From NCBI GenBank assembly GCA_019115765.1, contig DXCZ01000012.1, forward strand, positions 1 through 64,000: DNA of 64,000 nt, written 5' to 3'. This stretch comes from Candidatus Mediterraneibacter stercoripullorum (GTDB lineage Bacteria; Bacillota; Clostridia; Lachnospirales; Lachnospiraceae). Below the pieces are notes generated by a model. It had not been told where the DNA came from, did not search any database, and was given only the letters and a program-made list of their open reading frames with translations. Positions 15,736 to 55,900 of this stretch are shown one piece after another. The translations under genes and the position numbers were made by a program. Each line of letters begins with the position of its first letter. The stretch's first letter is position 1.

Positions 15736-15754
15736 TGCATTATCCCCCTTGTTT

Positions 15755-20254: not shown

Positions 20255-20668
20255 TCAGCACTTCACAACACTGACCTGAGCCTCCTGATCTCCATTGAGT
20301 TCTACGCTTACGCTGAGCTTCCCGCTCAGGTTGGTGCTCATCTTTCCGGCGGAATTCCCATCGATCACCACTTCATATTCACTCTCAGGCTCCAGCTCAA
20401 GGGTAAACTGCACATCTCCTGCCGCCGAAACCGTAAATGCGATCTCATTCTCTGTCTGTCTGAAGTGTTCCACCGTGCTTCCCGGTACTGACTCATAGAC
20501 AAACATTCCGTTCTTCTCGAGTTTTGTTATCTCGGAAAATGTCTTTACCTTGTAAAGGTCTCCCTCAAACTCAAAATTATCCTTCTTCGTCTTGGACGAA
20601 AGGGAGTAATCTCCGAAGCTTAAGGTTCCGTCATCTTCCGCGCGCAATAACTCTTTCACAGCTGTCAT
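20255..20668 (-). CDS. conserved hypothetical protein, 137 aa, beta-rich
   Basis: Intact ORF with RBS in an otherwise empty interval; no family recognised with confidence. Confidence 0.65.
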   Translation of the reverse strand: MTAVKELLRAEDDGTLSFGDYSLSSKTKKDNFEFEGDLYKVKTFSEITKLEKNGMFVYESVPGSTVEHFRQTENEIAFTVSAAGDVQFTLELEPESEYEVVIDGNSAGKMSTNLSGKLSVSVELNGDQEAQVSVVKC

Positions 20669-20736
20669 TTTAATTTTCCTCCTAAGTATTTCTGCTTATG
20701 GCTATTATATAATAAAAAATTCTGATTTGCCACTGA

Positions 20737-35838: not shown

Positions 35839-36564
35839 TCATCCTGGAGGAGTGGATTTCAGGATCCGATATGGATTGCGCTTCAGCAGGATCCTCGATG
35901 CATCGCTGCCGTAATACAGATCCAGTATCGCTGCGGTATCCTCCAGATCAATGGTACGCAGAACCGGATCATGAGCGTCAGAAGCGACCACCCCGGCGAT
36001 CCCTTCCCGGAGCATCTGATCAGCTGCCCGGGAAGCAAGTCTTCCGAAGGCGCCGGAGAGACTTCCCTTGTTGATCTGCAGTACCGTGCCGGACCGATAG
36101 AGTGCGCGGGCTCTCGACGGATCCCGCCGGATGAAGTCGTACCTCTCCGGATGCGCCAGGATCAGCTTCCACCCAAGCCCTCTCAGCCTGTCCAGACTCT
36201 TCTCAGCCAGATCAGCAGATACGTCAAATCGGAACTCTACCAGGATATATCTCCCTCCGTTAATAGCGGGAAGCGGGTTCTCCTGCGCATAACGCAGGAG
36301 CTCCTCATTTACGAGGAGCTCCATGCCGCCTGCAACTTTCAGCGGAATACCTTCCTTTTCCAGCACCTTCCTGAGACTGACAAGCTTCTTCACATAGTAC
36401 CGGACATATTCTCCCGGCTCCACCCGGGCAAAGTCCCCGTGAGAGGTGGCGGCAACGATCCTCGTGCCATTCTCCACGGCGATCCTTGCCATCTCCAGTG
36501 AGTCTTCGATTGTTCCGGCCCCGTCATCAATCCCGGGGATGATATGACAGTGAAGATCAATCAT
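35839..36564 (-). CDS. CpsB/CapC-type (PHP) tyrosine-protein phosphatase
   Basis: MIDLHCHIIPGIDDGAGTIEDSLEMARIAVENG; adjacent to BY-kinases. Confidence 0.88.
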   Translation of the reverse strand: MIDLHCHIIPGIDDGAGTIEDSLEMARIAVENGTRIVAATSHGDFARVEPGEYVRYYVKKLVSLRKVLEKEGIPLKVAGGMELLVNEELLRYAQENPLPAINGGRYILVEFRFDVSADLAEKSLDRLRGLGWKLILAHPERYDFIRRDPSRARALYRSGTVLQINKGSLSGAFGRLASRAADQMLREGIAGVVASDAHDPVLRTIDLEDTAAILDLYYGSDASRILLKRNPYRILKSTPPG

Positions 36565-38047
36565 GGTCCTTGTTCTCCTCCCCGGTCGGAGCTTCCTGTC
36601 CGTAACCGTACCTGTAACGGTTCTTCCGGTATCCGTAATTTCCGTAGCCGCCATACCTTCCATACCCGTATTCGCTCACTGACTCCGGATAATCATTAAA
36701 CACATACCCGAGGAATGCTGCTTTTCTGCCTCTCAGGGAAGAGATACCCTCCCATATCTTCTGCTGGGATGCGAAATCATGCTTTACAACATATAAGATC
36801 CCATCCGCCTGGTCTGCCAGGATTCCCGTATCCTGGAACATCTCGCATGGAGGTGTGTCAATGATAATATAGTCCATCTTCTCCCGTACCTTCCGGATAA
36901 AGTCTACGGTTTTCCGGCTGGTAAGAGCAGGCGCCGGCTGCCGGATCGGTCTCGTCCCTCCCAGGAACCAGAGAGAAGTCTTGTGCACTTTCCGGAGCAG
37001 TTCCTCCGGGTCCTTATCGCCTTTCGCCGCATCCGCCAGGGAGAATCCATTCCGAAGCCGGAGCATTCTTGCGTCTGCCTGCTTGCGCAGGTCTCCGTCG
37101 ATCAGGAGGACTTCCTGTCCTCTCTCCGCAAACATTTCCGCCAGATTCACTGCCAGAGAGGACTTGCCCTCTCCTGCAGACGTACTTGTAACAAGGAGTA
37201 TCTTTCCGCTTCTCTTCTTCAGCTCCTTCTCCAGACGGATCTGCAGCGCACGGAGACTCTCCCGGTAGCTGTATGGGACCTTATTGTCCCAGATAAGGAT
37301 GCTGGTATTCTTCTGCTTCTTCCTCGCCTTGAACCGGACATGAGGTATGGAAGCCAGACAGCGGAGACTGGTGACTTTCTTCATTTCTTCCGGATTCCTG
37401 GCTGTCTTTCGGAAGAGCGCCGTAATTCCAAGGAAACAGAGTGCCGCGAATGCACCGGCGCCGCCGCCCAGCGCAACAGAACGTGGCAGACTCATCTGAT
37501 TGTATGGCGCTCCCGGCGTCTCCGGCTCGTTCAGATAGTTAAAGCTGATATCTCCCAACACAAAACGGGCCGTATCCGGATAGATCTCGAGAGCGGCATT
37601 CAGGATCGTCACTGCATCCTCTGCACTTGAACTCTCCACTGACATGGTGACCACATTAGAGTCCGTTATCGTCTCCGCCGAGATGGTTCCATTCAGCGTA
37701 TCTGTCCCAAGCTGCTCCAGCAGAGTGCTCCGGAAGAAGCTGCTGTTCAGGATATATGGAAAGGTCCTCGACATCTGATCAGCCGTGCTGCTGTTGTAGT
37801 AAAAACTGTAGCTTCCGCTTGAGCCGTCCCCGGTTGAAACGGTGAAAGTAGCGCTGCTGCGGTACATGGGTTCATATCCCACAGCCTGAAATATGGAAAA
37901 TCCGGCTGCTCCGATCACGATCAGCGCAAGAACCAGCCACCAGAACCGGAGAAAACCTTTCCACATGGCGCCAATAAGCAGTACAAGATCGATCTCCATC
38001 TCGTCCTCTCTGGCATTTGACACAATATCATTTCTCTGTTCTTCCAT
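36557..38047 (-). CDS. Wzz domain/BY-kinase fusion (capsule chain length regulation)
   Basis: N-terminal Wzz; LLVTSTSAGEGKSSLAVNLAEMFAERGQEVLLIDGDLRK; YIIIDTPP; Tyr-rich tail YGYGRYGGYGNYGYRKNRYRYGYG. Confidence 0.88.
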   Translation of the reverse strand: MEEQRNDIVSNAREDEMEIDLVLLIGAMWKGFLRFWWLVLALIVIGAAGFSIFQAVGYEPMYRSSATFTVSTGDGSSGSYSFYYNSSTADQMSRTFPYILNSSFFRSTLLEQLGTDTLNGTISAETITDSNVVTMSVESSSAEDAVTILNAALEIYPDTARFVLGDISFNYLNEPETPGAPYNQMSLPRSVALGGGAGAFAALCFLGITALFRKTARNPEEMKKVTSLRCLASIPHVRFKARKKQKNTSILIWDNKVPYSYRESLRALQIRLEKELKKRSGKILLVTSTSAGEGKSSLAVNLAEMFAERGQEVLLIDGDLRKQADARMLRLRNGFSLADAAKGDKDPEELLRKVHKTSLWFLGGTRPIRQPAPALTSRKTVDFIRKVREKMDYIIIDTPPCEMFQDTGILADQADGILYVVKHDFASQQKIWEGISSLRGRKAAFLGYVFNDYPESVSEYGYGRYGGYGNYGYRKNRYRYGYGQEAPTGEENKDHD

Positions 38048-38051
38048 ATCC

Positions 38052-39458
38052 CTATCCTTTCTCCTGTCCGTAACCGCCGTATCCGTATTCTGAGCTTCCG
38101 GCAGCCCACTCCCGGTGGAATGCATTGAGTACGAATCCTGCAAAGTCCTTCCCGCTCTGCCATATCATATCCACCGTATCGTTGATCACACGTACATCAG
38201 CCCAGTCCTCCCGCACAACGAGAAGCACCGTATCGGCCAATGCCATCCAGATCTCCGCGTCTGTAGACACCGCAGTCGGAGAACAGTCTATCACAATATA
38301 GTCAAACTCCTGCTTCCACTCTTCCACCAGACCGGTTTCAGCAAGCCGGTTCATGAGGCGGGAAGGATCAGACGCGGCCCGGAACTGGAAGATCTGGCTG
38401 ATACTGTCCTTCTCGTTGTACATGACCACATCATGCCAGTCCGTGCCGTCCTTCAGCACATGTTCCAGAGAACTGCCGCGGCGCTCCCTGCGCTCAAATA
38501 TTTTATACTGGGACGGCTGACGCAGGTCTCCGTCCACCACCAGTACCTTCTTATGCTTTTCCGCCATAGCGAGGGCGATGTTCGCCGCTATAGTTGATTT
38601 CCCTTCATTCTCCGTCACACTTGTAACGAGCAGGACCTGCTGGCCTTTCCGGCGCATATGCGCCTCCGTCCTGGCCTCTGCACGGCGCTGTGCCTCAGCG
38701 AAGTCCATGCTGACAAGCGGAGAAGTAAGGAGCAGCGCCTGCTTTGATTTCTCCTGCTTCCATATGGATCCTTCCTGCAGAAGTGCCCCGCTTTTCCGCT
38801 CAAACGGAATTGTCCCGCGGATCCTCCCGTCCAGCTGACGAGAAGCACAGACCGCATTCTTCACCGTAAACCGCAGTACATAGAACAGACAGATCAGGCA
38901 GGCCATCGCGAATGCTCCGCCCAGGGCCAGAAGGGTCCTTCTGGTCAGCAGCCAGGAAGAATTGGACGGTTCGGAAGGCACCTCCGGCTCCTGTACGATC
39001 TGAAGAGACGCATTGGCAAATACATCTCCGGCCACCTCCTCATAGTGCTGCAGGGCAGAATTGATAAACAGGTATGCCTGCCTCGGATCCGGACAGGTAG
39101 TGCTGAGCACCAGCAGATTCGTCTCCTCAATGGGCGCACAGGTGATCGTCCCCTGGATCTCCTCTCCCACATCCTCAATGATCCGGTTCCTGAGCGCTTC
39201 ACTCTGGAACACCTGTCCGAACACATCCGCCATAGACGATGCCACTGAAAGCGAAGAGTAAGCACTGGACTCCCCGCGTACAGTCACCACCAGAGTAGCA
39301 GACGCTGTGTAAGCCGGTTCATATGTAATATTGTAGAGTCCTGTGGCAGCGAACCATACGGCTGCCGCCGCCATCAGGATCATCCAGGCATTGCGGAGCA
39401 GATCCATGCACAGACCTCTCCAGCTGATCTCATCCAGTCGGAATAATTCCCGGTTCAT
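38052..39458 (-). CDS. second Wzz domain/BY-kinase fusion
   Basis: Wzz N-terminus; LLVTSVTENEGKSTIAANIALAMAEKHKKVLVVDGDLRQ; YIVIDCSPTA; tail EYGYGGYGQ. Confidence 0.86.
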   Translation of the reverse strand: MNRELFRLDEISWRGLCMDLLRNAWMILMAAAAVWFAATGLYNITYEPAYTASATLVVTVRGESSAYSSLSVASSMADVFGQVFQSEALRNRIIEDVGEEIQGTITCAPIEETNLLVLSTTCPDPRQAYLFINSALQHYEEVAGDVFANASLQIVQEPEVPSEPSNSSWLLTRRTLLALGGAFAMACLICLFYVLRFTVKNAVCASRQLDGRIRGTIPFERKSGALLQEGSIWKQEKSKQALLLTSPLVSMDFAEAQRRAEARTEAHMRRKGQQVLLVTSVTENEGKSTIAANIALAMAEKHKKVLVVDGDLRQPSQYKIFERRERRGSSLEHVLKDGTDWHDVVMYNEKDSISQIFQFRAASDPSRLMNRLAETGLVEEWKQEFDYIVIDCSPTAVSTDAEIWMALADTVLLVVREDWADVRVINDTVDMIWQSGKDFAGFVLNAFHREWAAGSSEYGYGGYGQEKG

Positions 39459-39468: not shown

Positions 39469-40299
39469 CTATCCTTCTACAATGACCGTCAGCCAGGTCT
39501 CTCCTGTACTGCCGCCATCGGAAACTTCATAATGTATCTCATAGACGCCCGGCGTCTGCGTATCCACATTGGAAGAGACATTCACCCTTCCCGCATCTGC
39601 TTCATTTCCCTGCGCATCTGTCACACGCTGCACGTAGGAATCCGGATCAATGCTGCCGCCGGTGCTGATATACACGATCGAAGTACTGAGTTCAATATCC
39701 ATCGTTCTTCTCTCCGCACTGACTACATGGACCGGGAGTCCCACCGTAGAGGTATCACCGAAGCTGTTGCTGACCTCTACCGTCATGGTATAGCTGCCGG
39801 CTCTCTGGTAGTTCAGATCCGTTTCCGTCTGCGTGATCCAGTCCTTCAGGTCACCATCCAGCATATCCTGTGCGCCGATCCGGTTCATAGCCTCGGTATA
39901 GCTGCCTTCCTCCTCTGCAAATACCAGCGGCTCGGTCAGTGTAAATCTGGGAGAATGGTAGTCGGTAAAACACACCTCTCGTGTAAGGGTGGCCGGCTGG
40001 TCAGACGAATCAAACACCACGTACGTGATATTGGAGACGCCCTTGTCGATAAATCTGGAAAAAGAGCCCGCGATGATCTGGGACGTCAGATCCCCATCAT
40101 CCTCATCGCTTGCCGTCAGCCCTTCCAGGAGCTGCTCCTCCGTATAATCACAGGGAATCTCAAGAACCTCCCTGTCGCTTGTGATCTCCGGCAGGCTGGT
40201 ATCCCGGTTCACCAGCCGGATCACTTCGGTTATCCCGAATAATGCAAAAGATAAAATTGTAATAACGACCACTACGGTCCTGACAATTCTCATACCCAT
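39469..40299 (-). CDS. membrane-anchored Ig-like/DUF5011-type protein of the polysaccharide cluster
   Basis: 276 aa; N-terminal TM helix; YTEEQLLEGLTASDEDDGDLTSQI and repeated beta-sandwich-like modules. Confidence 0.65.
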   Translation of the reverse strand: MGMRIVRTVVVVITILSFALFGITEVIRLVNRDTSLPEITSDREVLEIPCDYTEEQLLEGLTASDEDDGDLTSQIIAGSFSRFIDKGVSNITYVVFDSSDQPATLTREVCFTDYHSPRFTLTEPLVFAEEEGSYTEAMNRIGAQDMLDGDLKDWITQTETDLNYQRAGSYTMTVEVSNSFGDTSTVGLPVHVVSAERRTMDIELSTSIVYISTGGSIDPDSYVQRVTDAQGNEADAGRVNVSSNVDTQTPGVYEIHYEVSDGGSTGETWLTVIVEG

Positions 40300-40487: not shown

Positions 40488-42248
40488 TCAGAACTCGTCC
40501 AGGAACTGACGGATCCCTTCCTCGTCTACCTCAGACACACGTCCTTCCCCGATCTTGTACACCCGGCTGCACATGGAGAAGACACTGGGACGGTGAGCCG
40601 CCACGATCACTGTACGGTGGGGCTCTTTCTTAATGATCCTCCGAAGGACCCGTCTCTCTGTCGCCACATCCAGCGCACTGGTGGCCTCATCCAGGATCAT
40701 CACCGGGGCATCCGCCAGCAGGGCCCGGGCGATGGACAGTCTCTGCTTCTGTCCTTCGGAGAAACGGGTACCTCTCTCCCGCACCTCCGTATCGATGCCG
40801 TGATCCAGCTTCTCCACGAACTCCCAGGCACATGCAGCCTCAAGGGCTGACCGGATCTCCTCATCTGTGGCGTCCGGCTTCACCATGCGCATATTGTCGG
40901 CAATCGTACCGGAAAACATAGTATTCCCCTGGGGAATATAATTGAACATACACCGGGTAGCCGAAGAGGCCGGAAGCTCCATCCCGCCGGGGTTCCCTAT
41001 GGTGATCTCCCCTTTCTGGGGATGATATAGCCCCAGTATCAGATTCAGCGTAGTCGTCTTCCCCTGTCCGGAAGGACCGATGAGAGCAACGATCTCTCCC
41101 GGCTCCGCCCGGAAGTCTGCATCCCGGTAGATCCACTTCTCTTCCTCGTAGGCGAAGTCTACCGAGTCCATATGTACATAGACACCTTCCTCTTTCCCAC
41201 GGCGCTTGATCTCCTCCGCCTCCTCCTGATTCTCCATGGAATCTCTCGGGAGCCCGGTGATCTCCATGATCCGCTCCGCACTGATGCCGGCCCGGATAAC
41301 CTGGGGCATCAGGTTCAGGATACTGCTGAATGATCCCCGGAGCGATCCTGCCATGGATACAAACATGGTCATGGTTCCATAGCTGATCTGCCCCTGCCAG
41401 AGGCGGAAAGCGGCAAATCCATAACAGGCATAGCCCACCGCCTGTCCCACAAGAGAGGTGGCGATGGTCATGGTCTGCTGGAACTTATTCTGCTTCAGCG
41501 CAATATCCACCGTCTCCTGCTGGATCCGGTGGAACTTCTCCGTCACCCGGTCCAGCATTCCGAAAGCCTTGATAAACTGCAGATTCTGGAAGGTCTCCTG
41601 ATCGAATACAGTCCGGTCGCTGGCTACATTCTGATTGTCCCGCTGGAAGTCCCGCATCCGCTTCGCCGAGTACCGGGAAGTCAGGAAAGAAATGGGCGCA
41701 CCCATCAAGGCGATCAGAGCCATCCACGGATCATTCTGCATGACGACAACAAAAGCCCCGCCGAAGCTGATCAGCGTAGTCACCACGTTGGGCAGAAAGG
41801 TAAGGATCGTATTCGCTACCATTCCCGCGTCTCCGTTCACCCGGTAGAGCAGATCTCCGGAGCGGTACTTCGCCAGAGACTCCCAGTTTGTCCGCAGCAC
41901 CTGTTCATAAATATCCGCCCGGATCTCATTGGTCACCTTCAGCCGTACCTTCAGAGACAGCCTGGACTTCACTGCATTGATAAAGATCTGCGCCACTCCA
42001 ACGCCGACATACGTGGCAGCCACCCCAATGATCTCCAGAGAATTCACCCCGGTCACTGCGTCCACCAGATCCCGGCTCACCATGGACGTCCCCAGTGCAA
42101 GAACCGATCCCGACGCTCCAAGCAGAACATATACGCCGATCTGCAGCCAGTATTTCCGCACATAGGCGTACATCCAGAGCAGCTCCGCGATCAGCTGCTT
42201 CAGCCTTCCCTCTTTGATCCTGCGGATGATCCGCCTGATATCGCTCAT
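40488..42248 (-). CDS. ABC transporter, fused permease/ATPase
   Basis: 586 aa; TM domain plus GPSGQGKTTTLNLILGLY, FSEGQKQRLSIARALLADAPVMILDEATSALD. Confidence 0.9.
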   Translation of the reverse strand: MSDIRRIIRRIKEGRLKQLIAELLWMYAYVRKYWLQIGVYVLLGASGSVLALGTSMVSRDLVDAVTGVNSLEIIGVAATYVGVGVAQIFINAVKSRLSLKVRLKVTNEIRADIYEQVLRTNWESLAKYRSGDLLYRVNGDAGMVANTILTFLPNVVTTLISFGGAFVVVMQNDPWMALIALMGAPISFLTSRYSAKRMRDFQRDNQNVASDRTVFDQETFQNLQFIKAFGMLDRVTEKFHRIQQETVDIALKQNKFQQTMTIATSLVGQAVGYACYGFAAFRLWQGQISYGTMTMFVSMAGSLRGSFSSILNLMPQVIRAGISAERIMEITGLPRDSMENQEEAEEIKRRGKEEGVYVHMDSVDFAYEEEKWIYRDADFRAEPGEIVALIGPSGQGKTTTLNLILGLYHPQKGEITIGNPGGMELPASSATRCMFNYIPQGNTMFSGTIADNMRMVKPDATDEEIRSALEAACAWEFVEKLDHGIDTEVRERGTRFSEGQKQRLSIARALLADAPVMILDEATSALDVATERRVLRRIIKKEPHRTVIVAAHRPSVFSMCSRVYKIGEGRVSEVDEEGIRQFLDEF

Positions 42249-42284: not shown

Positions 42285-42516
42285 GATGTTGGGGGCAAAA
42301 GCCCCCAACTATGATGCCTACGGATTGTTCCGTGCTTCGCACTTCCACGTCTACACTCCGTTTCGGTCGGTGCTAAACGCGCGTCACTGGCGCGCAGCAC
42401 CCCAATATTCGCATATCGTGGGATATACATCCCACTTTTATGCTCATATCGGGGCGGGTCCCAAGGCCTTTCACCCACTTATGAGCAAGCTCATGTTGGC
42501 TCAGACCTTGGGACCC
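42285..42516. repeat. structured intergenic element of several hairpins; candidate interspersed repeat or ncRNA
   Basis: Hairpins GTTGGGGGCaaaaGCCCCCAAC (42288-42309), GGTGCT/AGCACC (42369-42401), GTGGGATatacATCCCAC (42418-42435), GGGTCCCAAGG/CCTTGGGACCC (42456-42515). Confidence 0.6.
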
Positions 42517-42526
42517 TTGCATCATA

Positions 42527-42590: not shown

Positions 42591-43379
42591 TCATTTGAAT
42601 ACTGTTTCTTCTACCAGCCGCACGGCGTCCTCGTCCGGACGGCAGGACAGTTCGTAGACCGGAATCTTCGACAGGAGATGATCCAGAGTTTCCAGGCAGA
42701 GTTCCATACCGTTCTCCAGCCATCGCGGATAAAACACACTGTTGGACACCTCAGATACTTTCTCGAATCCTGTCAGCTCCCGGATCGAATTCTCCGGTGC
42801 CTGCTTCAGCACGATCATGGCGTGGACAGGGACACTGGTGTTCTCACAGTAGGGTGAGGAACCATGCCATGGAGTGCCCCAGCCAAGGAAGGCGTCTTCC
42901 GTTTCCTGGACAAAGACGATATCTCCATTGATGATCAACGCGTCACGGTACTTGTTCCAGAGCTCGGCTTGGGTGGTCTTGCCGATGCCCGATGGGCCAA
43001 GGAACATCAGACCACGGTCGTTGGTGGAGATAAGGGAGCTGTGGAGCTGGATCATGTGGCGCTGAACAGCGTGGGTGTAAAAAAATTGGAGTAAAAACAT
43101 ATCGAAACAAACCATTCCATCACCCAATTTAATAGTCCCTTTTTTCCAATCTTTTGAGACAAACATATAATTATATCCAACTTTAGCCACATAATGAATA
43201 CTATCTTTAAAATTGAAGCATTCTATTCCATGATACACTGCATTTTCCCGAAGAAGATTAATTTGACAATAAATTTCATTTTGATTACTTTCTTCAATTT
43301 GAAATTTTAGAAAACTATCCCGCTTTTTTATATCTATATTTAAAATTTCTATTATTAAATCTGTTACTCTAATAATCAT
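42591..43379 (-). CDS. HPr kinase-like P-loop protein associated with a radical SAM/PqqD cassette
   Basis: 262 aa; FLGPSGIGKTTQAELW P-loop; C-terminal HprK-like region; context. Confidence 0.75.
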   Translation of the reverse strand: MIIRVTDLIIEILNIDIKKRDSFLKFQIEESNQNEIYCQINLLRENAVYHGIECFNFKDSIHYVAKVGYNYMFVSKDWKKGTIKLGDGMVCFDMFLLQFFYTHAVQRHMIQLHSSLISTNDRGLMFLGPSGIGKTTQAELWNKYRDALIINGDIVFVQETEDAFLGWGTPWHGSSPYCENTSVPVHAMIVLKQAPENSIRELTGFEKVSEVSNSVFYPRWLENGMELCLETLDHLLSKIPVYELSCRPDEDAVRLVEETVFK

Positions 43380-43388
43380 TTATTAATG

Positions 43389-43712
43389 TTAAATTATAAG
43401 TTCCCAACATTCTTCATTAATTGTCTGTCTAACAAAATAACTCCGATCTGCATTGTCATTCTTTCCCCATGCTTCAAAATAATAATTTAAATTGTTATGT
43501 TTTTCTGCATATTCTTCAATATCACTTGGCTGAACATTAAAAAACGGACTATTAACATCACCCGTATACCAACCATGACCAGTAATTCCACCTGGGCTAA
43601 CCCAATTTACTCTTGCGCCGCTTTCATAATATCCAGAAGTAGAACCACCTTCAGCCATTGGCATAACTGAATTTGCTTCTATTTTAACGTAATTACTACC
43701 TTGCTCGTTCAT
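43389..43712 (-). CDS. small ORF, candidate radical SAM substrate/precursor
   Basis: MNEQGSNYVKIEANSVMPMAEGG...; SD aaaggtgag overlaps the stop of the rSAM gene (ORF track extends to a GTG at 43724); sits between rSAM and HprK-like genes. Confidence 0.55.
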   Translation of the reverse strand: MNEQGSNYVKIEANSVMPMAEGGSTSGYYESGARVNWVSPGGITGHGWYTGDVNSPFFNVQPSDIEEYAEKHNNLNYYFEAWGKNDNADRSYFVRQTINEECWELII

Positions 43713-43716
43713 ATTT

Positions 43717-44784
43717 TCACTCACCTTTCACTTCATCATAAATCTTCTTAACCCTGCCGCAATACTCCTCCGTCACCCGATGCGGACTCCCGCACTCGGC
43801 AGCCAGAGTCCCGGCACACTTGAAGCACACTTTCTGTGCCTCGCATGTCCTGCATTCCTCAGGCCATTCCAGAGCTTCCTCATATCGGACCAGCTCCTCC
43901 CAGGCCTTCTGAAATGGCATGTCTCTCACCGGGATATTCGGTTCATTCATAAAGCTGCAGAACCTCATATCACCGTTCCACACCACCCAGTATCCCAGGC
44001 GGTAGTCCTTGCAATAGGTACAGGGTTTTCTGTTTATATCAACCGGGGCTTTTTCCAGCCTCCGTTTGATCTCTTCTCTTTTCTGTTCTTCCAGTTTCTC
44101 CTCCACACGAACCTGCCGGGCCTCACTCTCGACTCCTCTGCAGGAGTCTTTGATCCCTCCGGTTGCCATCCATGGGAGTCTGTGGATGTATGCGTAGAAT
44201 GCCATCCTCTTTATATCATCTTCATTCTGCCGGATCACAGTACTGATCAGCTGGACCGGGATTTTCATTTCGCACAGGGCACGGATCCCGGCGTCTGCAT
44301 CGGTAAATCCATTCTTCATCCGGCATACTTTTTCATACACTTCATCGCTGGATCCATAGAGGGTGATCTTCGCCCCTCTTGGCGGATACTTCGCCAGCAG
44401 ATCTGCCATTTCCCCTTTGATAAGGGATGCGTTTGTCTGCAGGGTGATGAAGAATCCCATGGAGCACAGTTCCTTCCAGATTGTCTCGAACTCCGGATGC
44501 ATCAGCGGCTCTCCGCCGGTAACGCACAGCCAGGTAGTTCCGGCTTCTTTCGCTTCTTCTGCGATCCGGATCCACTCTTTCGCCGTCAGTTCTCTTCCGT
44601 ATTTCGGGATCTGATCCGGCTTCAGATGGACATAACACATCCGGCAATTGAAGTTACACCGCGGGGTAAGCTCAAAAGTTCCGGATATAGGGATCGCATC
44701 TGCGAATGCCTTTTCCCAGACAGATTTATAAAAGGGATCCAGCCATTCCATTCTCCGGCATGCCGGTTCAAATTCCGTACTCAT
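43717..44784 (-). CDS. radical SAM/SPASM peptide-modifying enzyme
   Basis: CNFNCRMC (CxxxCxxC), CVTGGEPLMHPEF; C-terminal cysteines CTYC...CSFM...CRTCEAQKVCFKCAG...C. Confidence 0.88.
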   Translation of the reverse strand: MSTEFEPACRRMEWLDPFYKSVWEKAFADAIPISGTFELTPRCNFNCRMCYVHLKPDQIPKYGRELTAKEWIRIAEEAKEAGTTWLCVTGGEPLMHPEFETIWKELCSMGFFITLQTNASLIKGEMADLLAKYPPRGAKITLYGSSDEVYEKVCRMKNGFTDADAGIRALCEMKIPVQLISTVIRQNEDDIKRMAFYAYIHRLPWMATGGIKDSCRGVESEARQVRVEEKLEEQKREEIKRRLEKAPVDINRKPCTYCKDYRLGYWVVWNGDMRFCSFMNEPNIPVRDMPFQKAWEELVRYEEALEWPEECRTCEAQKVCFKCAGTLAAECGSPHRVTEEYCGRVKKIYDEVKGE

Positions 44785-45113
44785 GATTCATCCTTCTTGG
44801 GCATCCGGACAAATACCCTGCCTCGCTTGATTCCATCATCCATGATGTTGTTATCCGACAGTATTTTCAGGAATTTCTCCACATCTTCCGCCGCCTTTTC
44901 TTCTGTTACACCAGTGTAGTGCTCCATGATCCTCTGCACCAGATCTTCTTTCTCGAACTCATGGTCCTTCATGTAGTCCCAGAGGTAGGCTGCTGAGGAA
45001 GAGATGTAAACAATGCTGGTCACTTCCTGCACCCGCTTCCCGGTCGGCACGATCACGTACTGTCCGGCAACCTCCCGCAGGATCAGGCCGTCTTTCAGTT
45101 TCATACGCATCAT
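44781..45113 (-). CDS. PqqD-family peptide chaperone (RRE-like)
   Basis: 110 aa; LKDGLILREVAGQYVIVPTG...SSSAAYLWDYMKDHEFEKEDLVQRIMEHYTG; 4-nt overlap with rSAM gene. Confidence 0.85.
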   Translation of the reverse strand: MMRMKLKDGLILREVAGQYVIVPTGKRVQEVTSIVYISSSAAYLWDYMKDHEFEKEDLVQRIMEHYTGVTEEKAAEDVEKFLKILSDNNIMDDGIKRGRVFVRMPKKDES

Positions 45114-45124: not shown

Positions 45125-46582
45125 CTATACTGCTGCTGTTTTGTCAGGTATATTCAATACTATCCGAAGGATAAATGTCTCTCCTTCTGTCCGGTATTCC
45201 AGACTGCCGTCGTATTTCTTGGCGACCGCTCTCATACTGGCGATCCCATCCCCGCCCGCGCGGTCCCGCCTTACAGGGCCGGCTGTGCCGCCGTTTTCGG
45301 CTCCCGGACTCTTCCTGAACTTCTTTTTCATGCCCTCTTCCCCCTCCGGGGCCATACAGTTCTCTATTTTAATAAGGAAGGACTGCTTCACCTGTCTGAG
45401 CATGATCCGGATAAACGGCTGGTCCGCTCCCGAGTCCTCACATGCCTCAACGGCATTCTCCATGGCATTTCCAAGGAGAACTGTCATATCTGTTATATCG
45501 AAAGGATAGTATTCTTTGATACTGATGTCTGTTTCCACCCGGATTCCTTTCTTCTCCGCAAGAGAGAAGTAATATCCCAGGATCACATTGAACATTGGAT
45601 TGCCGCAGATATCTCTGTCGGCAATCTCTTCCCATTCTTTCAGATACCTTTTCAGGTAATCCTCAAGACGGTCATACTGTTTTCTGTCTGCCAGCGAAGC
45701 CATTGTCCTGAAATGATGTCTCATATTGTGGTACATCCTCCGGTCTTCGCCGAGCCGGTCACTGAATGACTGATATTGTTGACTTTCCGCAGCAGCCAGC
45801 ATGGCGCTGGTCCGCTCCAGTTCTTCTATCTGCTTTTCTGCTGTCTGCAGCCCGCGCAGATAGAAGTGATATGCGAATATATCCATCAGGATCATGCTGG
45901 CCATCCAGATCAGGATACACAGCTCGCCTGCTCCGTCTTTCAGGAAATAATACAGCTTCTGTTCTGCGCTCAGAGAACATATGTATAATATAAGAAGCAG
46001 AACAGAGATTATAGTGACCATGCAAAGCTTCTTCCGGTTGGATGTATGCATATGTTCAGATCTGTGCTGCTTCATCAGTCTGTATATAAATGGATAAGTA
46101 ATAGCAGTTATGATAACGTATATAATAATGCTGACCGTGGACCACGGCCTGAACCCGCTGCCATAGACCCGGATCTCGAGGAGTTTTTCCACGGTCTCGG
46201 TCACTGCATACAGGAACGTTCCATAATGCAGTACGATCAGCCAGGTCAGAAGCCTGGTTCCGGCTTCCTTTTTCACCGCCAGGAAATAGGCAGCCGTCTC
46301 AATACTGAACATGCACAATAAAATGAGATTGCCCCATAACCAGCAAGCCGCCGCATCTTCTCCTGCCTGACAGCTTCCTTCATACAAGATTACTGCCTCT
46401 GCTGTTCCTGCCAGGATTATTCCTGCGGCCATCACCGGTACTAATATCCTTCTGAACACTCTCATCTGCCTTATGCCATAAGGTACAAAAAGCAAGAAAA
46501 CAATCGGAAGAGCCTGTATCAGGATTCCGCAAAACTGTATGCAGACATATATCTGTCTGCTGTCTGTCCCCGCCACGCACAC
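45125..46582 (-). CDS. GHKL-type sensor histidine kinase (AgrC-like)
   Basis: 485 aa; multiple TM helices; DRRMYHNMRHHFRTMASL; LLGNAMENAVEACE. Confidence 0.85.
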   Translation of the reverse strand: MCVAGTDSRQIYVCIQFCGILIQALPIVFLLFVPYGIRQMRVFRRILVPVMAAGIILAGTAEAVILYEGSCQAGEDAAACWLWGNLILLCMFSIETAAYFLAVKKEAGTRLLTWLIVLHYGTFLYAVTETVEKLLEIRVYGSGFRPWSTVSIIIYVIITAITYPFIYRLMKQHRSEHMHTSNRKKLCMVTIISVLLLILYICSLSAEQKLYYFLKDGAGELCILIWMASMILMDIFAYHFYLRGLQTAEKQIEELERTSAMLAAAESQQYQSFSDRLGEDRRMYHNMRHHFRTMASLADRKQYDRLEDYLKRYLKEWEEIADRDICGNPMFNVILGYYFSLAEKKGIRVETDISIKEYYPFDITDMTVLLGNAMENAVEACEDSGADQPFIRIMLRQVKQSFLIKIENCMAPEGEEGMKKKFRKSPGAENGGTAGPVRRDRAGGDGIASMRAVAKKYDGSLEYRTEGETFILRIVLNIPDKTAAV

Positions 46583-46584: not shown

Positions 46585-47295
46585 CTATGTGATCCGCATT
46601 GCAGCTTCAAACATATAGTCATTATATTTTTTTCTGCTTTCCGCCCTGGTCTTCCGGCTGAGCATAAATGTCACTCCTGCGATCTCACAGGACTGTGTAT
46701 TCATCTTCTCCACTGCCTCCATGTTGACGATAACGCCCCTGTTAATACGAAGGAAACGTTCGTCCAGCTTCTCCATGAATCGCTGAATGCTGTCTCTGAC
46801 AGTGAGGATCGATCCGTTCAGCAGGTGAATATGCAGGTTGTTATGATCACTGTCTATATAGGAAATCCTCTGAAAAGGTATCTCCTCTGTTTCCCGTATG
46901 CCGGTATGGAGCACCGCATTCTTGCGGGCACTCTCTTCAAACCGCCTTCTGATCTCCTCCATATCCTTCTGCTCCCAGGGCTTTACAAGATAGTGGAGAG
47001 CGTTCACCGCGAACAGCTCCGGACCGAAATCCCTGCTGTTGCTCACAAAAACCATTTTCAGTTCCGGGAAATTCTCGTGTATCCATTTACCTGCCTGGAT
47101 CCCGTCTACATTATCCATATAAATATCAAGAAAGATCAGGTCATACCCTGTACCTTTCTGAATGCTGCGGATCACTTCCTGTCCGCTGCCGGCCACATCG
47201 ATCCGGGCCTCCGGCCAAACTGCCTTCACAGACTGTACCAGTTCTCCTCTGTCATACATTTCGTCATCACAGACCATAATTCTCATTTGTTTCAA
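46585..47295 (-). CDS. LytTR family response regulator
   Basis: 236 aa; receiver domain (LIFLDIYMDNVDGI) plus LytTR (ISYIDSDHNNLHIHLLNG...FLRINRGVIVNMEAV). Confidence 0.9.
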   Translation of the reverse strand: MKQMRIMVCDDEMYDRGELVQSVKAVWPEARIDVAGSGQEVIRSIQKGTGYDLIFLDIYMDNVDGIQAGKWIHENFPELKMVFVSNSRDFGPELFAVNALHYLVKPWEQKDMEEIRRRFEESARKNAVLHTGIRETEEIPFQRISYIDSDHNNLHIHLLNGSILTVRDSIQRFMEKLDERFLRINRGVIVNMEAVEKMNTQSCEIAGVTFMLSRKTRAESRKKYNDYMFEAAMRIT

Positions 47296-47621: not shown

Positions 47622-50600
47622 TTATCTTCCTACTCCGCTGGTTCCTTCCGGGCAGATCGCAATACTTAATGTATCCAGAGTCTCTCCATATTTTACGATA
47701 AAGTCCTGTTCAGCCAGCCATTTGTCTGTGTCGGATACATATTCATATCCTTCCGGCAGCTCCCAGTCATCCTTTGTAAATGTATGTTTTTCTCCTTCTG
47801 TTCCTCTGGCGGTCAGTTCCATCTTCCAGGGCTCTCCACCTTCATCAGTAAGAGGAATGCCCCACTCGTCCATCCACCAGATCACAAGTTTTGCCTCAGC
47901 CTGGTCAGCCGGAATCCTTACTTTTACTTCGGCTGTATTATCATCCTTATTGATCAGAGTATCACCGACATTTACAATCTCATATCCCTGCGGAATATTC
48001 TGCAGAATACTTGTGTTGAACTGATAGCTGTCTTCCTCAACAGAGATTGTCTCTATTCCTACCGTCTCACCAGTTGCCTCATCCACATAGCTGACTGTCA
48101 CTTCTTTGTTCTGAACAATGTTTGTGATACGGATATCTACATCATTTCCGTTTCCTGCAAGGTCATAGATATTGACGTTGCGGTCTACGTTATGAGTATA
48201 CTCCTTTGTAAATGTAACATCGTCAACTTTTGTCCAGCCTTCCGGTGTCTGGATCGGTTCATTTGCGCGGATCGTAACGATCACACTTCCGGATGTGATC
48301 TCTGTTGTTGAATATTCAACATCCGCTTCAGGAGCCACTTTATCAATTCCGGTAACAGTAACAACTGCGCTTCCCGTTACTCCCGACAGACTTGTAAGTG
48401 TTACGGTTTCTTCCGTATTCTCACTATATGTCTTCTGGAACTGATTTCTCTTTGCACTTCCCGGTACTCTCTCCCAGCCGTCCGGAACATTACACTCAAC
48501 ATTTGTGGAAATGATCACAGTCACATCCTCATTCGTAGGCTGACCGTCATTCGAGTAAGCAACCTCTGCTGTCGGAGCAATATTTTCAATTCTCTTAACT
48601 TCGAAGCTTGCTTTCTCGGATACATTTCCTGCAATATCTGTTACCGTTATGCTGTCCTTTTTGGCCTCTGTATAAACTTTGGCCCACTGAGTTCCATCAG
48701 ATCCTTCTACTTCTGTCCAGCCTTCGCCCGGGCACTGTACCGCCTCATCAGCAGTAATCGTAACCGTCTTGGATGTACTCATCTGACTGTTCTCAGGACT
48801 GATCGCAACATCCGTGATAACCGGAGCAACCTTGTCAATTCCTGTAACATTGATCTCAAACTCTGCGGATACTCCGGACAGGCTTACAAATGTAACTGTC
48901 TCTGTTGTATTCTCGCTGTATGTCTTCTGGAACTCGTTCCTCTTAGCACTTCCCGGTACCCTTTCCCATCCGTCCGGTGTCTGGCACTCTACATTTGTCT
49001 TAACCGTTACAACTACATCCTGGTTCGTCGGCTGTCCGTTGTTGGAATAGGTAATCTCTGCTTCCGGCTTCACATTCTCGACCCGCTTCACTTCTAATTT
49101 ATAAGCGTCGGATTCATTTCCTGCGATATCCGTAAACTTGATCTCGCCCTTGAAGTTCTCTGTGAACTCCTTCTGCCACTGGGTTCCGTTGGAGCCCTCG
49201 ACTTCTGTCCATCCTTCCAGTGCCTGGATCGGCTCTGAGATTGTAAATGTAACCGTCTTGGATGTGCTCATCTGTCCATTGTCCGGTGTGATGACAAACT
49301 CACCGACAAGCTCCGGCTTCGTCTGATCCACATAGAATGTATATGTAGTGGAATTGCCCGCCTTGTCATATACAGTCAGTGTATTCTTGCCTTCCTCGCC
49401 GTTGCCTTCCTTCAGATAAGACTTGATATTCTGGTAATTGCCATCGCCCCATGTTCCTGTGATGCCTGTCGGCTTCTCCTTGCCATTCAGCACGTAATAG
49501 TCGAGCGCTGTGTCATCATGGAACTTCAGGCTGATGTTAATGTTGTACGGCTTCTCCTGGTCAATATTCTGAAGTTTTCCGCCTGTGGAGATCTGAGCGG
49601 TAGGAGCTGTCGTGTCCTTCACCTCTTCTTCCCACTGAGCGTATACTGTCATATTGCCGTCCAGTGTATCGCCCACGTTCAGCGCTTCACCGGAACCGTC
49701 CTCGCTTGTATTCCATCCTGCCAGCACGAAACCATCCTTTGTAAATGCCGGCATCTGCGCCTCTGTAATGGCTGTGTCGTTTGCCACATATGCATAAGCA
49801 GTCTGTCCCGCATTTGTTCCGTGGAATGTAACCATGCTGTAAGACGGATCTTCTACGTAAAGTCCTGCCCACTGGACATCTCCTTCGGATGTAAAGTACT
49901 TGTTGAAATCTGTCTCGCCAAGGTATGCAGACAGGCTTCCTTCCGGAACAGTAACCGTTCCTTCCCCTTTAACAATCTTGCCCTCAGTTGCCGGAGGAGT
50001 TTCCTTCTCTATAATGAGATGGAAATCGTTCATCGTTCCGTTATACGGAGTAGCGAATCCACATTCATCCAGACTTACAATGCTTGCAGGCAGCGTCACT
50101 TCTTCCAGGCTGTCTGTCCAGTAAAATGCCTTGGAACCGATTGTCTCAACCTTTGGCATATCAACGCTTTCAAGCGCTGTACATCGCTGGAATGCCTGGC
50201 TGTTAATAACCGTCACATCCGGTATAGAGATTGACACAATTCCGGAATTCTGGAATGCACTCTCTCCAATCTCGGTAAATCCGCCAAGTTCTACATTCTC
50301 AAGATATCTTATACCTTCAAATGCATCATCCGGCAGTACCGTAGAGCCATTCTCATAGGTCAGCCCGTCTGTCAGATTCAGTGTCAGTGCTTCAAGATCT
50401 TCACACTCTTCTTTGATATATGTAAGATCCTCCTTTGTAACATTACCGGATACGAACTTGATAGACGTCACATCCCCTGCATCGATTCCAGATGCCGTGA
50501 TAGCTTCTTCCAGCGTTTCGCCGCCAACAGACTGGCCGTTAATTTCCGCGGTCACATTAACAACCGCTTCTTCGAATACCGGATAAACTTTGATATTGTC

Positions 50601-52643
50601 TTTTGTAATAGCTGTCTCAGTTGTTATCCAATCGCCGGAGCCGTCTTTCTTTGTATTCCAGCCGGCAAATTCATAGCCTTCTTCTGCTTCGGCTGTGGGG
50701 ATCTGCTTCTCTGTCGGAGTAGAACCAGCCTTTACAAAGGCATACCAAGCATCTCCGCCGCCTGCAATGTTTTTCGCATTAAACTCAATACGATAAGTTC
50801 CTTCTTCTTTTAGATATAGCTTATTCCAATAAGTATCACTTGTTTTAATTGCACCTTCCGCATCCAGGTTATCCTTTATCTGATCCAGATAGTTCTGAAG
50901 CGCTCCCTCCGGAACTGTCACGGTCGCCTGTGATGTTATGCTTCCCACTCCGTCAAATGCGCCATATGCTACGGTTGGAGGTGTTGAGCCAAGCATTGTA
51001 ATCTTTGCACTGCTCTTCTTTCCATTATCTGTCGCGCCAAATTCAATATCTTCAATCGTCTTCAGTGTAGCAGGGAGCGTCAGATTCTTCAAAGAGTCTG
51101 TATATCTAAAAGAACCCTTCTCCAAAGTTTCAACTGACTCTAAGGTCAGATTCTCCAACTTTGTACAATTGAAGAACGCAGACTGTCCGATCACTTTCGC
51201 ACTGCTCAAGTCAAGATCTACTACTCGTGGTACTCCGCTAAACGCGCTCGTTCCAACTGTTACGACATCAGGCATATTAATTACTTTTACCGAATCAGAT
51301 TTCAGGCTGCTTCCCTGGATTTCTGTAATACCGCCAAGGGTAAGTGTCTGTAATACCCCCTTAGGAGTACTTCCATTTGTCCGTTCCGCAAACTCAAGGA
51401 CTGCCGTCTCCGTACTCAGTACCGTTGTAGGATTGCCATCTTTTCCGATCAGCTGCAGATTCTCGCCCAGATTCATCGTCAGTTCTTTCAACGTAGGAAG
51501 CGTTTTAATATAAGCCAGATCATCCTGAGTAACTTTACCGGATTCAATGGTAAGTGCTGTCACGTCTCCGGCAGTAAGTCCTGCTGCTTCTACAGCCTTT
51601 TCCAGTGAAGCGCCATTGTATGATGTTCCATTGATATTCGCTGTTACAACAGTCTGCTGCTCCGGCAGCTTCAGGCCTGCCCAGGTATGGTCTTCTGCAT
51701 CATACCACTTTGTATCCGCCATATATGCGTCCAATGCTTCTTCTGGAACCGTCAGAGTTGATTCCGGTGCAGCTTTCGTAAACGGAGTTCCGTTTCCTGT
51801 GATTTCCGGAGGAGTCATCTTATCTATAGTCACATGGATCTCTTTCTTAGCTCCGCCATTGCCGCGATAGAATGCTTTCCGCGCCAGTTTTTCAATCGTA
51901 TCAGGAAGATGGATTTCCGTAAAGTTCTTGCCGTCAAAGGCATTTGAATCTATTGATTTTACCTTCGGCATATTTACTTCTGTCAATGCATTACAATTTG
52001 AAAATGCATAATTCGAAATTGTCACTACATTTGGCAGATTAATACTTTTCAGCGCCCCTCCCTTGCCCGTATTGGCATCGCTAGGAGACTGCATGAAAGC
52101 ATATGGTCCTACCTTCACTACATCTGGTATAGATACATTTGCAAGAGATTTTGTTTCTGCGAGAGAATATGATCCAAGTTCTGTAAATCCGTCAAGTTCA
52201 ACTGTCTCAAGACTCTCCATATCCTGGAATGCACGAGAAGGTAATACAGTAACTCCCGCGTCAAAGGTCAGTTCCTCTGTCAAGTTAAGTTTGAATGTTT
52301 CAAGCGCCTCGCAGTTTTCCTTAATATAAGCAAGGTCTTCTGATGTAACATTACCAGACTGGAATTCAATCGTTTCCACATCCGCCGCATTGATGCCTGC
52401 TGCCTCTACAGCTGCCTGGAAACTCTCGCCTTCTGCTGCTTTGCCATCAATTAAAGCAGTTACAAGTCCTTCAGCTACTTTTGTCACCTGTTCATTTCCG
52501 TCATCTGATGTACTCTGCACTTCAGCCTGTATAGTCTTCACATTCATTTCCTGCAACGGAGCCGCCGATACCATTACCTGCGGGCAAACCATAGACAGAC
52601 AGATCACCAGTCCAAGTGCTTGCTTTAAAAATTTCCTTTTCAT
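47622..52643 (-). CDS. giant secreted repeat protein: BspA-type leucine-rich repeats, InlB-like B repeats, Ig-like modules
   Basis: MKRKFLKQALGLVICLSMVCPQVMVSAAP signal peptide; LRR_5-like repeats; VTFHGTNAGQTAYAYV..GFVLAGWNTSEDGSGEAL; no LPXTG. Confidence 0.85.
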   Translation of the reverse strand: MKRKFLKQALGLVICLSMVCPQVMVSAAPLQEMNVKTIQAEVQSTSDDGNEQVTKVAEGLVTALIDGKAAEGESFQAAVEAAGINAADVETIEFQSGNVTSEDLAYIKENCEALETFKLNLTEELTFDAGVTVLPSRAFQDMESLETVELDGFTELGSYSLAETKSLANVSIPDVVKVGPYAFMQSPSDANTGKGGALKSINLPNVVTISNYAFSNCNALTEVNMPKVKSIDSNAFDGKNFTEIHLPDTIEKLARKAFYRGNGGAKKEIHVTIDKMTPPEITGNGTPFTKAAPESTLTVPEEALDAYMADTKWYDAEDHTWAGLKLPEQQTVVTANINGTSYNGASLEKAVEAAGLTAGDVTALTIESGKVTQDDLAYIKTLPTLKELTMNLGENLQLIGKDGNPTTVLSTETAVLEFAERTNGSTPKGVLQTLTLGGITEIQGSSLKSDSVKVINMPDVVTVGTSAFSGVPRVVDLDLSSAKVIGQSAFFNCTKLENLTLESVETLEKGSFRYTDSLKNLTLPATLKTIEDIEFGATDNGKKSSAKITMLGSTPPTVAYGAFDGVGSITSQATVTVPEGALQNYLDQIKDNLDAEGAIKTSDTYWNKLYLKEEGTYRIEFNAKNIAGGGDAWYAFVKAGSTPTEKQIPTAEAEEGYEFAGWNTKKDGSGDWITTETAITKDNIKVYPVFEEAVVNVTAEINGQSVGGETLEEAITASGIDAGDVTSIKFVSGNVTKEDLTYIKEECEDLEALTLNLTDGLTYENGSTVLPDDAFEGIRYLENVELGGFTEIGESAFQNSGIVSISIPDVTVINSQAFQRCTALESVDMPKVETIGSKAFYWTDSLEEVTLPASIVSLDECGFATPYNGTMNDFHLIIEKETPPATEGKIVKGEGTVTVPEGSLSAYLGETDFNKYFTSEGDVQWAGLYVEDPSYSMVTFHGTNAGQTAYAYVANDTAITEAQMPAFTKDGFVLAGWNTSEDGSGEALNVGDTLDGNMTVYAQWEEEVKDTTAPTAQISTGGKLQNIDQEKPYNINISLKFHDDTALDYYVLNGKEKPTGITGTWGDGNYQNIKSYLKEGNGEEGKNTLTVYDKAGNSTTYTFYVDQTKPELVGEFVITPDNGQMSTSKTVTFTISEPIQALEGWTEVEGSNGTQWQKEFTENFKGEIKFTDIAGNESDAYKLEVKRVENVKPEAEITYSNNGQPTNQDVVVTVKTNVECQTPDGWERVPGSAKRNEFQKTYSENTTETVTFVSLSGVSAEFEINVTGIDKVAPVITDVAISPENSQMSTSKTVTITADEAVQCPGEGWTEVEGSDGTQWAKVYTEAKKDSITVTDIAGNVSEKASFEVKRIENIAPTAEVAYSNDGQPTNEDVTVIISTNVECNVPDGWERVPGSAKRNQFQKTYSENTEETVTLTSLSGVTGSAVVTVTGIDKVAPEADVEYSTTEITSGSVIVTIRANEPIQTPEGWTKVDDVTFTKEYTHNVDRNVNIYDLAGNGNDVDIRITNIVQNKEVTVSYVDEATGETVGIETISVEEDSYQFNTSILQNIPQGYEIVNVGDTLINKDDNTAEVKVRIPADQAEAKLVIWWMDEWGIPLTDEGGEPWKMELTARGTEGEKHTFTKDDWELPEGYEYVSDTDKWLAEQDFIVKYGETLDTLSIAICPEGTSGVGR

Positions 52644-52906
52644 ATTTTTTTCCTTGTCCCGTATCCCCAACGTACGGGATCCCTTTCCTAACAGTAAAAT
52701 CTTGTAATTTCACGTTTAGTTATAACCGACAACCTTTCTCTGCCACCCTCCTTTTTATATTATCAATTTCGTCGATTATATTTTTTAATTGATAATATTT
52801 TTGTTAATTTTTAACAACGCAAGCATAGCACTCTTCCATTTCTTTTTCAACAGATTTACTATTTTCTGGCAATATATTAACAAAAGAAAGCAATTTTCTC
52901 AAAAAC

Positions 52907-52947
52907 AGCAGGTTCCTGTCTGTACTTTATACAAACAGGAACCTGCT
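52907..52947 (-). terminator. terminator of the 52968-56558 gene
   Basis: AGCAGGTTCCTGT...ACAGGAACCTGCT perfect inverted repeat. Confidence 0.8.
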
Positions 52948-52967
52948 TACTAAAAAACTATTATTCT

Positions 52968-55900
52968 TTATTCTACAGGAACGATTCCGATTTCCGGGAT
53001 TTCAAGGGTCTCGCCATATTTTACCATAAATGACTGTTTCGCAGTACTTTCATCAAATTCTTCTGCGAAAGCATATCCCTCTGGAATTACCCAGTCTTCC
53101 CCATATTCAAAGGTTGCCCACTGACCTTCCTGACCGACTTTAGAAACAGTTACTGGTTCAACGTCGATTGTCTCTCCAAACTGTCCAACAAAGTTAACCA
53201 CCAGTTTAGCAGCTTCCATTCCTTCAATCGGCCGGATTCCTACATAAACATATCCGTCTGATGTGATCGGAAGATCTCCAAGTGATATAACTTCATACCC
53301 CTCAGGTACTGCGATCTTGGACGTGTTAACATTAACCGCATCTTTATCTACAGTCATCTTTTCTTCTTTGACCTGTACTCCGTTGATCTCGTCATAGAAG
53401 TTCAAAATAATCTCTTTGGTCGTCTCAATCTTGCGCAGTTCCACAAAGATCCAGCCATCATTAATTGTGACATCTCCCGAATTAACTACTTCATATCCTT
53501 CCGGAATGTCTGTCAGCTTGCTGGTGTTTACCTGTGTTGCATCCTTATCAACCACAACCTTGCCATCAACATAGCGTCCTTCTGCGCTGATATAATAGTT
53601 GACGCCGATTTCTTTTGTCATCGGTACCGGACGGAGGCCAATATATACATAGCCGTCGGATGAAATAGAAAGATCACCTGATGATACAAGCTCATATCCT
53701 TCCGGAACCGTAATATCGGATGTATTGATCTTCCATGCATCCTTATCGACTGTCATCGTCTCCTCTTTGACCTGTACTGCATTTTCCTCATCATAGAAGT
53801 TCAGCACGATTTCTCTGGTCGTCTCGATCTTGCGCAGTTCTACAAAGATCCAGCCATCATTAATTGCAACATCTCCTGAATTAACTACTTCGTATCCTTC
53901 CGGAATGTCTGTCAGTTTGCTGGTATTTACCTGTGTTGCATCCCTGTCAACTTCAACTTTGCCTTCCACATAGCGATCTTCATCTTCAATATAATAATTA
54001 ACGCTGATTTCCTTTGTTGTTTCCGTAAGCTTCACAGGAACATATACATATCCGGCGCAGATATCCAGCATATCCTTATCTCCGATATACTCATATCCCT
54101 CGGGGATCATGTCCTTTACCTGGTCATAAGAGATTGTTTTGCTTCCCTTTGCTACAGCAACAGATGGCTCATCAACCTGAACTCCATTCTCTTCATCATA
54201 GATATTCAGTTTTACTTCTTCAGTAATATTTGACACTGTTACTTCAAGAGTCTTGCCTGGTATTCCTGTATGACTCTTGATATTTGTATAAGTAAGTGTT
54301 TCATTATCTTTGAAGATCCTTACATAGGTAGCCGGATCATCTACTGTCTTCTTCCATCCGTCTGCCTTAAGCATCTGATCTGTTTCTCCGGACAGCTGAG
54401 TATTCCAGACGATCTGTACAGGTACGTCATTCGAAGTCGGATCTTTATATGTATAGTTAACTGTTGCTTCCGGCACCGTGCTGTCTATATTGGTAACGAG
54501 AACACCAACTGAGCTTGTATTACCAAGCTTATCTTTCACTGTATAGCTCTCATCAACCGGCTTCTGGGTTGAAGTTTTCCATACTGTGGCATATCCGTCT
54601 CCGTCATCGTCATTCTGAGCTGTGAAAAGCAGGCTGCTTTCATCTGTCATGTATACTTTAAACGGCTCATCTCCGGTCAGTGTTATATTCTTTGTATATG
54701 TCATCTGATCCGGGTTATCCACTTCAACTGTCACTTCCGGTCCGGTCTTGTCAATATTGGTGATATCAATAACAACATCTTCTCCAGGTACTCCTGTAAA
54801 GCTCTTAATGTTATCATACACAACATGCGTATTTTCTCTGAAGAGTTTCACAAATGTTGCCGGAATATCATCTGTCTTTTTCCAGCCATCATCAATAAGA
54901 CGTTCCTCCACATCCTCGGAGGGATATGTATTCCACACTAACTGTACAGGCACTACACCATTTGTCGGTTCTGTAACAGTATAATTGATCTTTGCCACCG
55001 GCTTTGTGCTGTCAACGTTCGTCACCAGAACTGCCACGCTTGTCCGGTTGCCCAGCTGATCCTCAACTTCTACTCCTTCATATGCCGGATGACCTGCGGA
55101 GGCTTTCCATACCGTGGCATATCCGTCTCCGTCGTCGTCATTCTGAGCTGTGAATCCCATCTTGCTTACAGAACTGTTATTCACCTTAAACGGCTCATCT
55201 CCGGTTAATGTTACTGTCTTTGTAGGAGTAGGCTGATCCGGCTTTTCCACATCTACTGTAACATTGGGAGCAGTCTGATCAACATAGAATGTATACTCTG
55301 TGCTGTTTCCGGCCTTATCCCACACAGTCAGCGTGTTTTTGCCTGCCTCACCGTTTCCGGTATTCAGATAGTTTCGGATGTTCTGATAATTGCCGTCTCC
55401 CCACTGTCCTGTGATCCCCGTCGGTTTCTCTTTGCCATTCAGAACATAATAGTCAAGTGCTGCATTATCACTGAACTTCAGGCTGATATTGATATTATAT
55501 GGTTTGGACTGATCAATATCCTGCAGCTCTCCTCCGGTGGAAATCTGAGCTTTCGGAGCAGATTTATCGATTCCTGTAACCGATATGAAAACAGTCCCTT
55601 CCTTACCAGATAAGTTTAAAAATGTTACTGTTTCCTCAGTATTTGCGGTGTACACTTTTTCGAATGTATTCTTCTTCGAAGCGTCCACTCTTTTCCAGCC
55701 TTCCGGAGCCTGGCATTCCGTATTTGTCACCACGCGTACCGTTACATCCTTATTTGTGAGAACTGCTTTTCCATCCACAACATTAGAATACGTAACAGAT
55801 GCTGCTTCAGGAACTGTGTTGTCAATCCTCTTTACTTCCACCTTTGCATTGCCTGTATTACCGGCACGGTCTGTCACTGTAACGTTCTCTTTTGCAGTAG

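Follow-up and report, generated by a model that had tools for sequence, protein, structure and literature searches.

The closest described system to the locus considered here is that of the linear polyphosphorylated peptides (LPP; PMC13381572). LPP precursors are 35-200 aa long, with a conserved N-terminus and a variable C-terminus, and are often encoded in capsule loci; the kinases of these related systems phosphorylate their precursor (PMC13381572). The operon under study lies in a stretch of 64,000 nucleotides from Candidatus Mediterraneibacter stercoripullorum (contig DXCZ01000012.1), referred to below as the window. Like LPP, it comprises a discrete RiPP recognition element (RRE), an HprK-like kinase, an MsbA-like exporter (nearest family MsbA_rel, 288.6 bits, below its curated cut-off) and a small precursor with a conserved N-terminus and a variable C-terminus, in a capsule/polysaccharide gene context. 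However, the LPP core genes include a SpI-type leader peptidase and an NTP transferase (PMC13381572), and neither these nor any other leader peptidase was visible in a Pfam search of the operon genes, from which the two Wzz/CpsD genes were excluded. Conversely, the window locus possesses a radical SAM enzyme, which LPP lack (the term 'radical SAM' is absent from PMC13381572). The LPP leader motif is YxxPxV. In the window family the tyrosine, Y8, is invariant in 34 small-protein sequences, usually as Yxx(V/I), and proline at +3 is not general.

Paeninodin-like phosphorylated lasso peptides, as far as PMC13381572 and general knowledge indicate, also combine an RRE, an HprK-like tailoring kinase and an exporter. 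They employ a lasso cyclase and a B2 protease, however, neither of which was found among the operon genes searched against Pfam; the window operon has the radical SAM enzyme instead. A similar combination, an HprK-like protein with SPASM radical SAM enzymes, is represented by the SynChlorMet cassette (NCBIfam ScmC, ScmE, ScmF), but the matches to ScmC (20.6 bits) and ScmF (75.6 bits) are weak and far below the cut-offs of 125 and 400 bits. HprK/P itself resembles the window kinase in the fold of the catalytic domain and in the P-loop and differs from it in the hypervariable N-terminal domain and the peptide operon setting; the Pfam Hpr_kinase_C match (18.2 bits) is below the cut-off of 33.3. 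No RiPP system uniting radical SAM and HprK-type enzymes was found in the literature searched. Since the LPP peptidase and NTP transferase were not seen among the operon genes searched and the SynChlorMet and HprK cut-offs are not met, the locus is regarded as a variant near these systems and not as a member of them.

Table 1. Features of the operon, with genes in their order on the minus strand, followed by the exchanged segment and its flanks (window coordinates).
Feature	Coordinates	Strand	Basis
LytTR response regulator	46585..47295	-	Pfam Response_reg + LytTR; upstream in some, not all, related loci
GHKL histidine kinase	45125..46582	-	Pfam HATPase_c_5; upstream in some, not all, related loci
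PqqD-like RiPP recognition element	44781..45113	-	Pfam PqqD 45.0 bits, above cut-off
Radical SAM enzyme, CxxxCxxC, C-terminal Cys-rich region	43717..44784	-	Pfam Radical_SAM 96.4 bits
Small protein, 107 aa, putative RiPP-type precursor/substrate	43389..43712	-	34 homologues in same operon position share key residues
HprK-like kinase, variable N-terminal domain, residues 1 to ~100	43080..43379	-	Low column identity; beta-rich in confident model
HprK-like kinase, conserved catalytic domain, P-loop GPSGIGKTT	42591..43079	-	Invariant columns in 30 homologues; fold match HprK/P + PEPCK
MsbA-like ABC exporter without peptidase domain	40488..42248	-	Pfam ABC_membrane + ABC_tran; 57-99% identical in related loci
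Ig-like surface protein	39469..40299	-	Pfam Bact_surface_Ig-like; same place in most related loci
Wzz/CpsD-like protein 1	38052..39458	-	Gene order shared with related loci; function inferred from sequence alone, without family search
Wzz/CpsD-like protein 2	36557..38143	-	Gene order shared with related loci; function inferred from sequence alone, without family search
CpsB/CapC-like phosphatase	35839..36663	-	Pfam CpsB_CapC 170 bits
Exchange cassette	43083..43708	-	Small-protein gene minus start codon + kinase codons 1 to ~99; unalignable to G037, flanks 92-99%; GC 30%
Upstream shoulder, raised divergence	43709..44500	-	3-9% vs ~1% beyond; 100-bp identity profile vs G037
Downstream shoulder, raised divergence, kinase core	42600..43082	-	9-11% falling to 4-5%; 100-bp identity profile vs G037

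The adjacency of the PqqD/RRE, radical SAM and small precursor genes (Table 1) is that of radical-SAM RiPP systems generally. Modification of the small protein by the radical SAM enzyme is inferred from the protein families, PqqD and radical SAM both being assigned by Pfam. Between the kinase and exporter genes lies an Rfam Clostridiales-1 RNA (RF01699, 84.3 bits; window 42312-42524, minus strand). This element behaves like an inserted repeat: it is missing at the corresponding site of the comparison genome G037 described below, and its DNA matches 20 other places in its own genome, almost over the full length at 93-94% in two cases and more briefly or weakly in the rest.

The small protein most likely starts at ATG 43,712 and not at GTG 43,724, because the former is preceded by a Shine-Dalgarno-like GGTGAG and is conserved in G037. 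Besides the leader residue Y8, its 34 homologues (95-146 aa across the family) have in common W37, G42, W48, W82 and a single C-terminal Cys102 in the core. It matches no Pfam, NCBIfam or PHROG family; its structure model is modest (pLDDT 74) and has no structural match in PDB. It belongs to a hypervariable exported-type protein family of gut Lachnospiraceae, without a named family and linked to surface-polysaccharide genes.

The kinase consists of two parts; mean column identity is 0.20-0.47 in the N-domain and 0.66-0.99 after residue 100. A confident structure model (pLDDT 94) of the kinase resembles both HprK/P and PEPCK; the fold match to HprK/P reaches E = 4e-6, although the sequence match is weak. 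Phosphorylation of the small protein by this kinase is inferred from the fold and by analogy with the LPP kinases (PMC13381572); the activity is untested.

A first-pass annotation made from sequence alone had placed a sharp change of base composition between the radical SAM gene and the 3' part of the kinase gene, both of normal GC. This claim held. Sliding GC across the window is 24-30% at about 43,080-43,710 and 50-57% on either side (about 24% at 43,100-43,499, 54-56% at 42,600-43,000 and 50-53% at 43,700-44,600). The 630-bp cassette has 29.8% GC; elsewhere in the window (mean 49.6%, SD 4.8%), no segment of equal length falls under 36.3%. Amino-acid usage as the sole source of the low GC was ruled out by third-position GC in the kinase gene, which rises from 0.17 in the N part to 0.68 in the C part.

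The replacement of this AT-rich segment was seen by comparison with G037, the genome of another, related species of Mediterraneibacter, to which most of the window is colinear. The two operons are 92-99% identical on both flanks, and nothing can be aligned between 43,709 and 43,082, where an identity of about 97% gives way to unalignable sequence in the space of a few bases. At the protein level, PqqD (98%), the radical SAM enzyme (97%), the kinase C-domain (98%) and the ABC exporter (99%) are nearly the same, in contrast to the small protein (30%) and the kinase N-domain (19%). The upstream edge is one base past the ATG of the small-protein gene, and the downstream edge is kinase codon 100, where the conserved FYTHAVQRH begins. 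Thus, a hypervariable AT-rich unit, the small-protein gene with the first ~100 kinase codons, has been replaced as one block between near-identical backgrounds, as shown by a single near-isogenic pair. By alignment, the first-pass boundary inside the kinase frame (43081) is corrected to 43,082, and the upstream one (43735) was off by 26 bp and falls within the end of the radical SAM gene. Uniform divergence across the whole operon in related strains, named there as the outcome that would refute the proposal, was checked against G037 and not found; identity collapses near both proposed boundaries.

Raised divergence on both sides of the cassette is read as import by homologous recombination through the conserved flanks, and the upstream shoulder is inferred to be donor DNA brought in with it. 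No other near-isogenic pair was found in the genus and family samples, and the close pairs L078/L080 and L059/L060 show no swap. The best match to the window cassette in a donor search is only 53% identical. No convincing repeats flank the cassette edges, and no silent cassettes were found in the same genome, where each close kinase locus has one small protein. The operon annotation, which was not aimed at recombinases in particular, showed none. An assembly chimera is unlikely: neither genome has a break in the kinase frame, and genomes of isolates show this layout too.

A single scan of GTDB genomes produced 40 loci of the Lachnospiraceae type. Gene order is the same in nearly all of them, isolates included, where the contig is long enough; the genes for the PqqD-like protein, radical SAM enzyme, small protein, kinase and exporter form the shared operon, and the Ig-like, Wzz/CpsD and CpsB genes occur in most, not all, of the approximately 40 loci. 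Nearly all loci combine a high AT content with hypervariability in the small protein and the kinase N-domain: the N-domain is lower in GC than the C-domain in 34 of 35 (p = 2e-10), and the small-protein region is lower than the radical SAM gene in 29 of 30. Mean identities over 28 loci are 0.64 for PqqD, 0.61 for the radical SAM enzyme, 0.31 for the small protein, 0.24 for the N-domain, 0.75 for the C-domain and 0.73 for the ABC exporter. Across loci, GC of the radical SAM gene agrees with that of the C-domain (r = 0.76), and GC of the small protein with that of the N-domain (r = 0.53); N-domain GC is unrelated to that of the flanks (r = 0.01-0.15). This pattern is consistent with a pool of cassettes that has its own base composition.

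Covariation was evaluated by partial rank Mantel correlation in 26 loci, near-duplicates removed. Leader and core were divided at a fixed alignment column, nine residues before Trp37, which was picked after viewing the alignment, once the first automatic rule had failed. Several correlations were examined without multiple-testing correction, which the main ones would survive. The core covaries with the kinase N-domain (r = 0.35; partial r = 0.36, p = 0.0003, controlling for leader, radical SAM, PqqD, kinase C-domain, composition, length and GC) and not with the C-domain, although the latter directly adjoins the N-domain. The leader covaries with PqqD and radical SAM (0.46 and 0.48) and not with the N-domain (partial r = -0.04). 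When only the largest class (19 loci) is considered, the core/N-domain covariation persists (0.22-0.29), whereas that of leader and PqqD is lost (0.09, p = 0.21); the leader result therefore depends on differences between classes. PqqD and radical SAM covary strongly (0.88), the kinase C-domain and ABC exporter at 0.50, and radical SAM and ABC not at all (-0.04), so that an upstream and a downstream block with separate histories meet at the cassette. Overall, the core/N-domain covariation is moderate (0.22-0.36). In L048, L067, L068 and L075, small proteins 55-64% identical (the cores of the last three are 66-69% identical to that of L048) stand beside N-domains only 17-27% identical, so the linkage is loose.

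The first-pass reading, in which the substrate and the N-terminal region of its kinase are exchanged together, is supported by the G037 swap and by the core/N-domain covariation; that the small protein is the kinase substrate and that the N-domain sets specificity remain inferences. The likely explanation is a phospho-/rSAM-RiPP-like family in which substrate and kinase recognition domain are exchanged as one, the activities of the kinase and radical SAM enzyme and the role of the product being inferred. The PqqD-like protein would bind the leader of the small protein, which could then be modified by the radical SAM enzyme, phosphorylated by the HprK-like kinase and exported by the MsbA-like transporter, in connection with the downstream Wzz/CpsD/CpsB surface-polysaccharide genes. 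Homologous recombination via the conserved 3' end of the radical SAM gene and the conserved kinase core would swap the cassette. It is proposed that the N-domain recognizes the core, so both are exchanged together and the match of enzyme and substrate is kept, while PqqD and the radical SAM enzyme would read the conserved leader and need not change.

The same variability could in principle arise without DNA exchange, in a fast-evolving hotspot where point mutations accumulate in the small protein and N-domain, selection being relaxed or positive. N-domains and cores are indeed hypervariable in all loci, and there are pairs with different N-domains but the same type of small protein. This explanation is nevertheless very unlikely and is contradicted for the G037 pair by the abrupt loss of alignment between 92-99% identical flanks and by the shoulders of raised divergence; the base composition of the N-domain, independent of the flanks, also speaks against it. 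Exchange could also be mere allelic variation without matched specificity, the N-domain serving another role (dimer contact, regulation, partner binding) and travelling only as a neighbor. The adjacency of N-domain and core means that linkage alone could yield covariation, which is moderate, and N-domains do differ among loci with similar cores. However, the leader, carried in the same exchanged block (minus the start codon), follows PqqD/radical SAM and not the N-domain, and the core follows the N-domain and not the C-domain directly adjoining it; this alternative is considered unlikely.

The cassette could finally encode a polymorphic pheromone, comparable to agr- or com-type pherotypes, with the upstream GHKL/LytTR pair as the receptor system. 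Such a pair is located directly upstream here and in several related loci, but G037 has nearly the same histidine kinase (99% identity) and the same regulator (100%) despite an entirely different cassette, and several loci have no GHKL/LytTR pair nearby. This possibility is very improbable.

Joint exchange of substrate and recognition domain remains the preferred explanation. It would be a natural demonstration that the substrate specificity of a tailoring kinase sits in a separable N-terminal domain evolving with the core of the substrate, leader-binding enzymes following the leader instead, and would show directly how modularity in peptide-modifying enzymes can be tested. A bolder reading, for and against which the evidence is presently balanced, is that the horizontally exchanged unit crosses a gene boundary and takes the substrate gene with only the recognition domain of the kinase, the leader-reading enzymes, catalytic core and exporter staying fixed and new products arising by plug-in exchange.

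Several other observations were made in the window and related loci. Between 4,000 and 64,000, the window is a mosaic relative to G037 (about 91% identity at 4,000-12,500, at least 99% at 13,000-21,500), which suggests frequent recombination between the two species. At 49,500-56,500, strong divergence from G037, not shared by the surroundings, affects an LRR (BspA-type) surface protein and the large protein that follows it. The window genome itself contains two loci of more remote similarity (L006 and L007, on contigs C62 and C78), each encoding an HprK-like and a radical SAM protein, of which the C62 locus has PqqD and adjoins Ig-like and Wzz/CpsD genes. A paralogous operon in the same genome (L005:7354-9966) encodes a different small protein, and its kinase C-domain is 89% identical in protein and about 75% in DNA. 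A contig carrying a complete operon (L078) also bears a 5'-truncated small-protein gene and a kinase gene with no PqqD/radical SAM upstream (L050:8722-9759). In L053:8696-9528, a frameshift near a T7 tract splits the kinase gene at the junction of the N- and C-domains, which may be a sequencing error or a real split. In L061:302-830, a small-protein core is fused in frame to a phage-tail-like N-terminus near the contig end, probably in a chimeric contig.
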